NCBI GenBank assembly: GCA_964017185.1
Contig: OZ024883.1
Location: 2,418,001 to 2,482,000 of the forward strand
Source: Rugalucina vietnamica
Taxonomy: Eukaryota > Mollusca > Bivalvia > Lucinida > Lucinidae
Direction of reading: 5' to 3'
DNA: 64,000 bases
Positions 18,101 to 61,598 of the stretch are shown one piece after another. Position 1 is the first letter of the stretch, and every line of letters starts with the position of its first letter. A program made the translations under genes and the position numbers. The notes beneath the pieces are model-generated. The model had not been told where the DNA came from. It saw only the letters and a list, made by a program, of their open reading frames with translations, and made no database searches.

Positions 18101-21100
18101 TCTGATTTGTTACAAACAGCTAGAGACACATCAGAACTGAAGCATACAACAGTGTTCAATGATGTGCAAAGTGTTAGTCACAACGAAATAGCTGTTAAAA
18201 ACAACACGTAAGCACAAAAATCTAAGTGAACAACTTAAACGTCATGGCATGCCCCGTATAATCCTAGCGTCTGTCGCAGAAATTGTCATAAAAACTAAAT
18301 TTTTCTAGCGATTTGCCTTAAACTTTCTATTGTAATCCTTCTCGGATGGGGAATAAATATAAGAAAATTTGCTTGAAGTCGAATGAGAAATAATGTTTTT
18401 ATAGGAACTTTTGACTCGGCCAGCGTATATTGAAAACCCATTGGCAAATGACGTTAACGTCTTGGCGTGCTCCGGGTAGCGCTAACACGCATCAAACTAA
18501 TTGCCATAGAAACGATGTTTATCAAGCGATTTGTCTGAAACTTTCTATGCTTGCTTGTATTAAATTGATCGCAAACATACGGTAATTTCAGAGAAATCGC
18601 ATATACACTTTTGATTTTATTGACAAAGTCCACAAACTTTTTGCTTTCCCCTCGTAGATATCATCAGTCAGGGTTCCCACAGGCACTGCAAAGCCTGGAA
18701 AACATGGAAAATGGCTAAAAAAAATCCATGCATGGAAAAATTCATGGAATTTGAAAGATGATGAAATATCATGGAAAAATCATGGAATTTTGTTATGAAA
18801 TGCCAGTTTGGATGTCTTTGGGATTCATTAGCTCACCTGAGCCGAAGGCTCACAAGGTGAGCTTATAGTATAGTAGTCGAGCCGGCTTCCGTCCGTGCAT
18901 GCGTCCGTCCGTTCACATTTTCAAACTTGAATATCTCTAAGACAACAAGGCCAATCGTGATCAAATTTTATCTAAAGCATCATCGGGGAGGGGGAAAGGT
19001 TGTGTTAGGTTTTGGGCCAGGTCCAATCAGAACTCTGGTTTCCATGGCAACAGATAGCTCCCATAGACTTACAATGGGAAAAACATAAAAAAATCTTCTT
19101 CTCCCAAACCACAAGGCCCAGAGCTTTCATATTTTGTGTGTAGCAATGTATTATGGTCCCCTTTATAATCCTGCCATCCGTGCCCCTGGGGTCCATACGG
19201 GCCCCGCCCCGGGGGCGTCATGGGAAAAACATAAAAAAAATCTTCTTCTCCGAAACCGCAAGGCCCAGAGCTTTCATATTTTGTATGTTGCAATGTGTAG
19301 TGGTCCTCTTTATAAATCCTGACAACCATGCCCCTGGGGTCAAAAATGCCCTGCCCCGGGGGTCATTAGCTCCCATAGACATACAATGAAAAAAACATAA
19401 AAAAATCTTCTTCTCTGAAACCACAAGGCCCAGAGCTTTCATATTTCGTGTGTAGCAATGTATAATGGTCCTCTTTATAAATCCTGCCAACCATGCCCCT
19501 GGGGTCCATATGGGCCCCGCCCCGGGGGCGTCATGGGAAAAAGATAAAAAAATCTTCTTCTCCGAAACCACAAGGCCCAGAGCTTTCATATTTTGTGTTT
19601 AGCAATGTATAGTAGTCCTTTTTATAAATCCTGCCAACCGTGCCCCCGGGGTCCATACGGGCCCTGCCCCGGGGCATCATGGGTAAAACATAAAAAAATC
19701 TTCTCCGAAACCGCAAGGCCCAGAGCTTTCATATTTTGTGTGTAGCAATGTATAGTAGTCCTTTTTATAAATCCTGCCAACAGTGCCCCTGGGGTCCATA
19801 CGGGCCCTGCCCCGGGAGCATCATGGGTAAAACATAAAAAAATCTTCTCCTCTGAAACCACAAGGCCCAGAGCTTTCATGTTTTGTTTGTAGTAATGTAT
19901 AGTGGTCCTCTTTATAAATCCTGCCAACTGTGCCCCTGGGGTCTATAAGGGCCCTGCCCCGGGGGTGTCATGGGAAAAACTTTTCTTCGAAACCATAAGG
20001 CCCAAAGCTTTCATATTCTGTGTGTAGCAATGTAAAGTGGTCCTCTTTATAAATCCTGCCAACGGTGCCCCTGGGGTCCATACAGGCCATGCCCCAGGCA
20101 TGTCTACCATAGACTTATAATGGAAATATATGAAAATATCTTCTCTGCAACAGCATGACACAATTTAGCTTGTATATTAGATATACAACATTGTCATGTG
20201 AAGCTCTACATAAATCCTGCCAATCTTGCCCCTGGGGTCAAATATGGCCCCACCCCGGGGGTCATTATAGGACCCTGACCTTGTTAGATGATTTTTTTCA
20301 AGTGAACCCAAATGGCAGAAAAGAGGATACACAATCCAGACAAGAGCTCTTCTGCTGATGTAATTAGGGTTTCAAGGTCACGTGACCAAGATGGCCACCA
20401 TACCCATATATGGTAAAAACCCCAATTACTTTGTCCAGTGACTGTAGTTGTTGACTCACAGGTGAGCGATCGTTGCCCTTGGGCTACTTGTTTTTTTTCC
20501 AAACGGCATTCAAACTTATTTGTCTTCATCAGAAAACAAGATAATACCTTGAATTAAGTTACTTTTGTAATATAATTATCTGTTCTTGCCTTTTAAAAAG
20601 TGGTATATGACAATAAAATAAATAAATAAGCAGAAAAATTAGTCCTGGAAATTTAACGCCGATCATGGAATTATCATGAAAAAGCCATGGAATTTTATTT
20701 TATACTTTTTGTGGGAACCCTGTCATCTTGACTACCAAAATGCATTGAAGTAAAAAATCAGTGTCAAGTTTTTACTTTGTTGCATGAGCACTTCATTGTT
20801 CTTCTAGGAAAGAAAGTTGACACTATTCAGAAGATATTTGAGCTGTTGTTTGATGAAGCGGCATGGAGGCAGCCATCTTTGATTGTCCTAGATGACCTTG
20901 ATCATATAGCAGCAGCCCCTGCGGGACCAGAGTTTGAGATGTCAGGGGAGGCCCTTTACTCCGCAAGGGTCGCTGAAGGTAAGGATGTTAACTTTGGGAA
21001 AAAAATTAAGTTAAACCATCCTTACATATTAAGCCATAGTTGTTTACTTATTTAGAAGCATATTTTGGATGTCATTAAATTGGATCAAAGTCTCATAAAT

Positions 21101-59913: not shown

Positions 59914-61598
59914 TTTTTAGCTCACCTGAGCCGAAGGCTCACAAGGTGAGCTTATAGGATGGCCATGATCCGGTGTCCGTCCATCCGTCGTCCATCCGTC
60001 GTCCACAATTTCAAAGATCTTCTTCTCTGAAACCGCTTGGCCGATCTAGTTGAAATTTTATGTGGAGCCTCCTTGGGTAGTGGCATTTCAAGTTTGATCG
60101 CGAAATTCAGGTCACATGACCAAGATGGCTGCCACGCCCATATATGGTAAAAACCCTTCAAAAATCTTCTTCTCCAGAACCGGTGGGCCGATTTCCAGGA
60201 ATCTTGGTATGTAGCATTTGGGACTCCAGCCCATCATAGTTTGATAAAATGATGACCCTTGGATGACCTTGACCTATTTTACGGCAAGGTCAATTTGGAA
60301 ACATAGGCTTTTACATGGGAAAAAGTGAAAACTATGGATTTTTTGAAAACTATTGCAGCCTGAGGCCTGAAAAGTGGTAGATGCAAACAACTAATGGAGT
60401 AGATGAAGGTATTTGATTAATATAGGTCAAGGTCATCTCTTGACCTTGGCCAGTCTGTCGTCCATACACACTTTTCAAAGATCTTTTTCTCTGAAACTGC
60501 TGGGCCAATCAAAGTGAAATTTTATGTGGAGCATCCATTGGTAGGGGAGACGAAAGTTTTATCGCGAAATCCATGTCACATGACCAAGATGGCTGCCACG
60601 CCCATATATGGTAAAAACCACTCAAAAATCTTCTTCTCCAGAACCGGCAGGCCGATTCTTATGAAACTTGGTATGTAGCATTTGGGACACCAGCCCATCA
60701 TAGTTTGATAAAATGATGACTGTAGGATGACCTTGACATATTTTACGGCAAGGTCAATTTTGGAAACATAGGCTTTAACATGGGAAAAAGTGAAAACTAT
60801 GGATTTTTTGAAAACTATTGCAGCCTGATGCTTGAAAAGTGGTAGATGCAAACAACTAATGGAGTAGATGAAGGTATGTGATAAATTTAGGTCAAAGTCA
60901 TCTCTTGACCTTGGCCAGTCTGTCGTCCATACACACTTTTCAAAGATCTTCTTCTCTGAAACTGCTGGGCCAATCAAAGTGAAATTTTATGTGGAGCATC
61001 CATGGGTAGGGGAGACGAAAGCTTGATCGCGAAATCCAGGTCACATTACCAAGATGGCCGCCACGCCCATATATGGTAAAAAACACTCAAAAATTTTCTT
61101 CTCCAGAATCGGCAGGCCAATTTTCGCGAAACTTGGTATGTAGCATTTGGGACTCCAGCCCATCATAGTTTGATCAAATGATGACCATAGGATGTCCTTG
61201 ACCTATTTTACGGCAAGGTCAATTTTGGAAACATAGGCTTTTACATGGGAAAAGGCGAAAACAATGGATATTTTGGAAACTGTTGCAGTCTGAAACCTGG
61301 AAGTTGCTAGATGCAGACAACCAATGGAGTCAATGAAGGTAAGTAAATAATGAAGGCCAAGGTCATTTCTTGACCTTGACCCAAAGTCATTTAAATATCA
61401 AAATTAAAATTATGGTTTTCTCATAAATCACTGGGTTTGGAAACTATTGCAGCCTGAGACCTGAAACTTTGCAGATGCAGACAACTTATGAATTCAATAA
61501 AGGTGTGTGAGTATTCATGGTCAAGGTCATTTCATGATGACTTAATACTCCAGGATCAGGCTTCAGGTGAGCATTCTCAGGACCAATGGTCCTCTGGT
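59914..61598 (+). mobile_element. HINE-A6, near complete
   Basis: TTTTTAGCTCACCTGAGCCG with hairpin, CCATCCGTCGTCCATCCGTC microsatellite, about three and a half units of about 450 bp (AAAGATCTTCTTCTCTGAAA, ACATGACCAAGATGGCTGCC, GACCTTGACCTATTTTACGG), then TTCAGGTGAGC, hairpin GGACCAATGGTCC, TCTGGTTTTG. Confidence 0.85.

Follow-up and report, generated by a model that had tools for sequence, protein, structure and literature searches.

Why should three families of mobile elements in one stretch of a bivalve genome, each filled with its own satellite, be built to a single plan? The stretch in question, our window, comprises 64,000 nucleotides of Rugalucina vietnamica (contig OZ024883.1, forward-strand positions 2,418,001 to 2,482,000; G000:C15:2418001-2482000 within a genome of 1,089,854,562 bases, 1.09 Gb, in 47 contigs). 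Reading of the sequence together with a motif scan gives five A-type, two B-type and one C-type elements plus broken A pieces (Table 1). A preliminary description had taken the families for non-autonomous Helentrons (HINEs) of unrelated sequence, in which one machinery mobilises many satellites; we find its observation partly confirmed and its interpretation partly supported. Very probably, the elements are HINEs of autonomous Helentrons resident in the same genome, which insert between two Ts (T^T), have a satellite that diversifies together with their ends, and have lineage-specific parents.

The common blueprint is real, and the element types lie where they had been described, with their parts in the order claimed: a 5' hairpin, a CGTC-like microsatellite, ~150-bp tandem units, an inverse of the 5' motif, a 3' palindrome and a TT-flanked end. 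On folding, six of seven 5' hairpins beat all of 200 shuffles, and the seventh, that of B1, was beaten by 3/200 (z from -2.8 to -6.3). The inverse, described as exact over 11-13 bp, is so in B (11 bp) and C (13 bp), but in A it ranges from 9 bp (A1) to 13 bp (A3). A separate 3' hairpin had also been proposed; the palindrome is present, in four types at the same place (A has two, GGACCA[AT]TGGTCC and GCCCTTGGGC), but its folding energy is ordinary, six examples giving z from -0.2 to -1.8, which is within chance. Nor do the families prove unrelated: the 5' ends of A and B are nearly identical (TTTTTAGCTC[A/G]CCTG), and the A, B and C satellites appear to have a common core.

Inside the elements, stop-to-stop open reading frames (ORFs) of at least 120 aa number two (126 and 136 aa, both on the minus strand of A arrays), and neither has a Pfam match at E 0.1, in keeping with the noncoding nature of HINEs. 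The bare structural signature is not specific. Scanning the window for it gave 12 matches on the plus strand and 10 on the minus strand (shuffles of one strand, n = 100: mean 0.65, maximum 3); three of the 22 are element end pairs (B1, B2 and C), and none of the five A copies was recovered. Canonical Helitrons have a 5' TC and a 3' CTRR and insert between A and T. The elements described here are of a different kind, with insertion at T/T and the Rep motif RGSPH.

If these are HINEs, an autonomous Rep/helicase/endonuclease element with matching ends would be expected, and we found one for A and one for C, but not for B. A Helitron_like_N search of the genome yielded 409 candidates, of which 150 were scored; all of these are matches, many within open frames of 2,500-3,500 aa, and 0 of 14 control genomes were positive. 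Rep motif 2 was located in 26 of 30 loci, all 26 with RGSPH, the other four giving no match; PMC4067079 gives RGSPHxH, with S in place of the L of canonical RGLPH, as the Helentron form of this motif.

The likely A parent is present in two copies, on contigs C5 and C7, which are 13.1 and 13.9 kb long and have different flanks. Their likeness begins at the A 5' end (99.7% over 4,493 nt, 99.97% over 3,733 nt, 98.7% over 2,605 nt and 97.1% over 1,949 nt). The order of parts is TTTTTAGCTCACCTGAGCC, CGTC repeats, satellite subunits, a 2,621-aa ORF and the end CTCAGGTGAGCGTTTATAGGACCAATGGTCCTCTGG. The array, which consists of four A5s1 and four A5s2 subunits with the last of each partial (best E 1e-50), is located between the 5' end and the Rep-helicase ORF, whose domains include DUF6570, Helitron_like_N and PIF1 (2.4e-18). 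No inner A 3' end occurs in the parent within 10 mismatches of 34. The window element A2 matches it at 84% over the first ~1,590 nt and at 95% over the last 37 nt; relative to the parent, an A HINE keeps the 5' end, microsatellite, array and last ~40 nt and is without the ORF and 3' region.

The likely C parent (contig C12, 18210437-18227721) has C ends on both sides, ~16 C units and a 3,542-aa ORF with DUF6570, Helitron_like_N and a terminal Exo_endo_phos domain (3.4e-11). A second copy, on contig C13, has the C array and an exact C 3' end, the stretch that was read stopping short of the 5' end. The window C element matches the C12 copy at 88% over ~2,340 nt, and its last ~50 nt match at 90% (C12) and 96% (C13). 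In the Rep-containing region, where the Rep lineages of the genome form 11 clusters, the A and C lineages are 34.7% identical over 648 aa. Because the A and C ends belong to lineages this far apart, each with its own satellite, the proposal of one machinery mobilising many satellites is not supported. Since both likely parents already carry the same satellites as their HINEs, the satellite looks built-in rather than random cargo. The blueprint is ordinary; the system is more interesting, in that it comprises two separate Helentron lineages, each with a built-in satellite of its own.

Genome-wide 3'-end patterns allowing up to two mismatches gave 26,967 matches for A, 4,724 for B and 1,690 for C, and the reversed-pattern controls gave 0 for each. 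In a set of 29 end pairs, one was mispaired (the A2 5' end with the B1 3' end). Both ends are present in 18 of 20 fetched C copies and in the window copy, and T before TATAGCC and TT after CTAG are seen in 19/19. As had been predicted, five empty sites, one for A (A2) and four for C, show insertion between two Ts with the target left unduplicated. These are the informative cases among seven junction-spanning matches, two having been dropped for an 8-base gap and for a match to the element itself. Counting TT once, the joined flanks of A2 give a gap-free 88-nt alignment with an intact unit among the neighbouring B units; at two of the five sites (L029 and L033), one junction-adjacent base also differs from the empty site. 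Together with Helentron parents that have matching ends for A and C, this mode of insertion supports the assignment to HINEs. The C family looks young, as judged from the 98.4% identity of the window copy to one on contig C9 (L028) and from a 302-base C piece whose 40 best-scoring places, the window included, are 99-100% identical over the full piece. At another locus (L036), a C element sits in an array with a unit that by eye resembles satellite F, the neighbouring unit being the empty site.

How the satellites relate to one another was assessed with profile models and shuffles, because a loose Smith-Waterman comparison of units made gaps too cheap and gave high scores against some units even to a control repeat (ctl135). 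The descent of the A, B, C and D satellites from one ancestral ~150-bp repeat is supported statistically by these models. The apparent common core has the same strand and register across A, B and C and is clearest via satellite D, which is located ~1.6 kb beyond the 3' end of the C12 copy. A model made from A5s2 copies only finds units of both other families, strand and register agreeing, with best E values of 0.001 for B and 0.028 for C, and 0/2000 shuffles reach its score against either the B or the C consensus. Conversely, a model made from B and C units only has six other matches in the window (E up to 2), all of them A subunits on the same strand and in the same register. Against D, the A5s2 model scores 20.6 bits and the C model 13.2 bits, and the D model scores 18.2 bits on C, 15.7 on A5s2 and 8.0 on B, each at 0/2000 shuffles. 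Satellites E and F closely resemble each other, and their likeness to the other satellites is largely confined to a short block.

Variability within families is mostly not clearly lower in the core than in the remainder of the unit (core vs rest: C 0.108 vs 0.098; B 0.117 vs 0.090; A5s2 0.235 vs 0.215), A5s1 being the sole case in which it is lower (0.172 vs 0.227). As the core shows no clear excess of conservation within families, the data favour common descent or exchange over constraint.

Several observations weigh against this account. Among 14 direct A-B-C model pairs, only two reach 0/2000 (A5s2 to B and A5s2 to C); C to A5s2 gave 5/2000, and 8/2000 when repeated, two further pairs gave 28/2000 and 83/2000, and nine found nothing. 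Models leaving one family out gave 11/2000 (A+B to C) and 61/2000 (A+C to B), and the third A subunit, A5s3, gave no support when tested for the core. At 22.3 bits (1.2e-4), the Exo_endo_phos match of the A parent falls short of the Pfam cut-off, which is 24.5. Two copies were read per parent lineage, and HINE-parent identities of 84% (A2) and 88% (window C) mean that the copies read are not the immediate sources. For B, no parent was found: the 3' regions of six Rep loci had a C end in one case, A-type ends in three (one degenerate) and none of the searched ends in two, and by eye none of the 100 listed B 3' ends, all on contig C1 from a total of 4,724, lies near the Rep matches of that contig. 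A weak B-like match (L081, 5522) is not an end. That B has its own parent is assumed. In both C copies, moreover, the stretch from array to ORF contains a decayed C-type 3' end, with 8 and 4 mismatches out of 34, so that what we call the C 'parent' could have come about when read-through joined a HINE unit to a Helentron. The ~2 kb after this inner end are common to both copies at 82%, which indicates that the arrangement was inherited; an old terminator that was read past may be its origin. Termination at this inner site could generate C HINEs; the final 50 nt of the C element in the window are 96% identical to the outer end vs 80-88% to the inner ends.

How far do other explanations account for the same facts? 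One shared machinery, mobilising all three families with unrelated satellites as cargo, would fit the layout and T-rich target that they have in common, and since the A and B ends are nearly alike, cross-mobilisation between A and B is plausible. Yet the A and C ends each belong to their own Helentron lineage with its own satellite, and the satellites appear related, so we regard this explanation as very improbable. The inverted motifs and 5' hairpins could also suggest cut-and-paste miniature inverted-repeat transposable elements (MITEs) or foldback elements, an idea to which we attach almost no credence given the asymmetric ends, the five empty sites without target duplication, and parents that encode Rep and, for A, PIF1. 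Alternatively, HINE shells might have captured host satellites independently as filler DNA, a HINE with its array having later been fused in C to a Helentron ORF by read-through. Filler DNA is one scenario that PMC7492417 gives for the oyster elements, and the decayed inner end of both C copies and the many direct model pairs that find nothing would agree with it. So would a B 5' end that is followed by a nested A Helentron, satellite E and then B units, because E and then B units beyond one B 5' end imply that arrays can be shuffled. However, the A parent has its array in place without an inner 3' end, and core, strand and register are common to A, B, C and D; we consider independent capture improbable.

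A further possibility adds to the HINE reading and replaces nothing in it, namely that the units persist as a cis-acting core, either a Rep-binding iteron or a promoter/enhancer of the Rep gene. The A copies and the C12 copy have the array placed after the 5' end and ahead of the Rep ORF, the core survives across lineages whose proteins are ~35% identical, and 35 of the 40 sites of the type TCAAGGTCA in the window are inside elements. Within-family variability of the core, mostly not below that of the rest, argues against such a role, as do short elements of 534 and 469 bp; we advance it tentatively, as possible. A broader conjecture, which we find somewhat more doubtful, is that the arrays are an ancestral working part of the Helentrons here, an iteron- or promoter-like leader that lies between 5' end and Rep gene, kept in the HINEs because Rep needs it and the source of many dispersed mollusc satellites. 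If this were true, the unrelated-looking satellites would be diverged copies of one leader.

Under the HINE reading with lineage-specific parents, the Rep/helicase of a parent would drive rolling-circle replication of both the parent and its HINEs, starting at the 5' hairpin and finishing at the 3' palindrome. Internal deletion would give rise to HINEs, or in C perhaps termination at an inner 3' end that was once intact, and satellite and ends would have diversified together as the lineages split, with some exchange.

This blueprint is already published for the oyster. In PMC7492417, the Cg_HINE of Crassostrea gigas comprises 11 elements with monomers of mostly 140-180 bp, and it has in common with our elements a 5' subterminal inverted repeat (subTIR) and its inverse, a GTCY-type microsatellite, a central array, a 3' subTIR with a palindrome, a T-rich target without duplication and a fixed array orientation. 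Whereas ten autonomous Repbase elements could not be related to those HINEs, here two lineages match in ends and satellite, and, unlike in that report, satellites of different families appear to have a common core. Pearl, MgE and DTC84 of bivalves, cited in the same source, have a similar architecture, Pearl with short arrays of ~160-bp central repeats. The Cg170/HindIII family is likewise a satellite inside HINE/Helitron elements, and oyster CL4 has two segments in common with CL1/2/10/13 (PMC7492417 and PMC11136912).

According to PMC4067079, the HINEs of a mite, Culex and Drosophila are deletion derivatives of Rep-helicase-endonuclease Helentrons with an RGS motif. They, too, have empty sites without target modification, some have tandem repeats, and HINE-parent identity in the mite is 84-99.9%, compared with 84-88% in the pairs compared here. 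An array between the 5' end and the ORF of autonomous elements is seen here. Further literature comprised PMC12628747, PMC8268682 and PMC9659126. The titles and abstract openings listed mention no satellite array in an autonomous mollusc Helentron, and as subscription papers and Repbase lie outside this search, we claim no priority. A literature search with the motif strings gave only unrelated titles among the matches listed.

Two abundant HINE families that carry satellites are here connected with their likely machinery, a link beyond the reach of the oyster study. That paper (PMC7492417) treats as open whether an element captures such satellites from its host or has them as a component of its own. 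With arrays in autonomous Helentrons of two deeply separated lineages and an apparent common origin, that question becomes testable, as do the questions of which mollusc satellites are Helentron leaders and whether a leader acts in transposition or Rep expression.

Table 1. HINE-type elements and related features (window positions, except where a locus is named)
Feature	Position	Strand	Description
A1	18828..20492	+	A-type HINE; second 3' palindrome type GCCCTTGGGC; satellite 147 bp x 6.9 at 19074-20095
B1	23005..26247	+	B-type HINE, split by nested A2; 5' hairpin TTTTTAGCTCGCCTG; microsatellite CGTTTACGT
B1 units	23093-23734, 25733-26187	+	~172 bp; on both sides of A2; the second tandem array itself spans 25733-26045
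B1 3' side			3' inverse CAGGCGAGCTA at 26213; palindrome GCTGTCCTGCGACAGC at 26225; end TCTTA|TT
A2	23761..25730	+	A-type HINE nested in B1 satellite unit; 457-bp units 23844-25555
A2 3' side			inverse at 25693; palindrome GGACCATTGGTCC at 25711; end TCTGG|TT
B2	26902..27860	+	B-type HINE; ~167-bp units 27026-27818 (tandem array 27026-27553); palindrome at 27838; end TCTTA|TT
A3	49275..49812	+	short A-type HINE; palindrome GCCCTTGGGC, match 49793-49806
C1	50161..52545	+	C-type HINE; 5' hairpin TATAGCCCCGCTT; CCTTCCGT-like microsatellite 50207-50258; 151-bp units 50260-52484 (tandem array 50260-52479)
C1 3' side			inverse at 52508; palindrome GTCAGATCCTCTGAC at 52521; end AATTCTAG|TT
A4	53284..54927	+	A-type HINE, seemingly interrupted by a smaller repeat; 3' palindrome degenerate; end CTCTGG|TT
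Broken A-type remnants	57430..59774		5' end on - strand at 59771; subunits on both strands
A5	59917..61599	+	A-type HINE; 465-bp units 60009-61378
A5 3' side			inverse at 61562; palindrome GGACCAATGGTCC at 61580; end TCTGG|TT
Decayed inner C-type 3' ends	L083 3280 and L084 3390		between satellite array and ORF

Some further observations concern the parents and the elements. The N-terminal part of the A parent ORF (L071) matches Herpes_teg_N (PF04843; E 3.5e-6), and the ORF contains coding tandem repeats of 51, 114 and 165 bp. The A copy on contig C7 adjoins a B 5' end and therefore lies inside a B-ended element. The A Helentron interrupts this B 5' end (L076 2489; L074 7320-8401), and on its right side is an array of a 146-bp satellite (E), then a B unit; B 5' end, E array and B unit perhaps form a double-array element. 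The 9-mer TCAAGGTCA, which we take to be a nuclear-receptor-type extended half-site, occurs 40 times on both strands between window positions 14377 and 61521, where ~0.5 would be expected with equal base use. Another motif, TGACGTCA, presumably a palindrome like the cyclic AMP response element (CRE), occurs 14 times between 15884 and 52216, seven times in the C array and seven times elsewhere.

Outside the genome, TTAGCTCACCTGAGCC had 12 matches in viral contigs, and none of the 12 continues into element sequence beyond the motif. Stricter patterns for the A 3' end and the A unit gave 0 matches in viral contigs and 0 in prokaryote genome contigs, and the A unit had no plasmid match.

Other features of the window include host gene exons with AAA ATPase likeness on the plus strand at 16519-26713, from a gene that we assume to be PEX1-like; PDB searches with it gave no match or weak AAA ATPase matches. 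On the minus strand, a 245-aa ORF at 37695-38429 looks retroelement-like by eye, its sole Pfam match being a sub-threshold one to CENP-H, the ORF at 41056-41676 matches reverse transcriptase (RVT_1, 2e-19), and the ORF at 4019-4483 has a TNF-family domain (E 1.6e-10).

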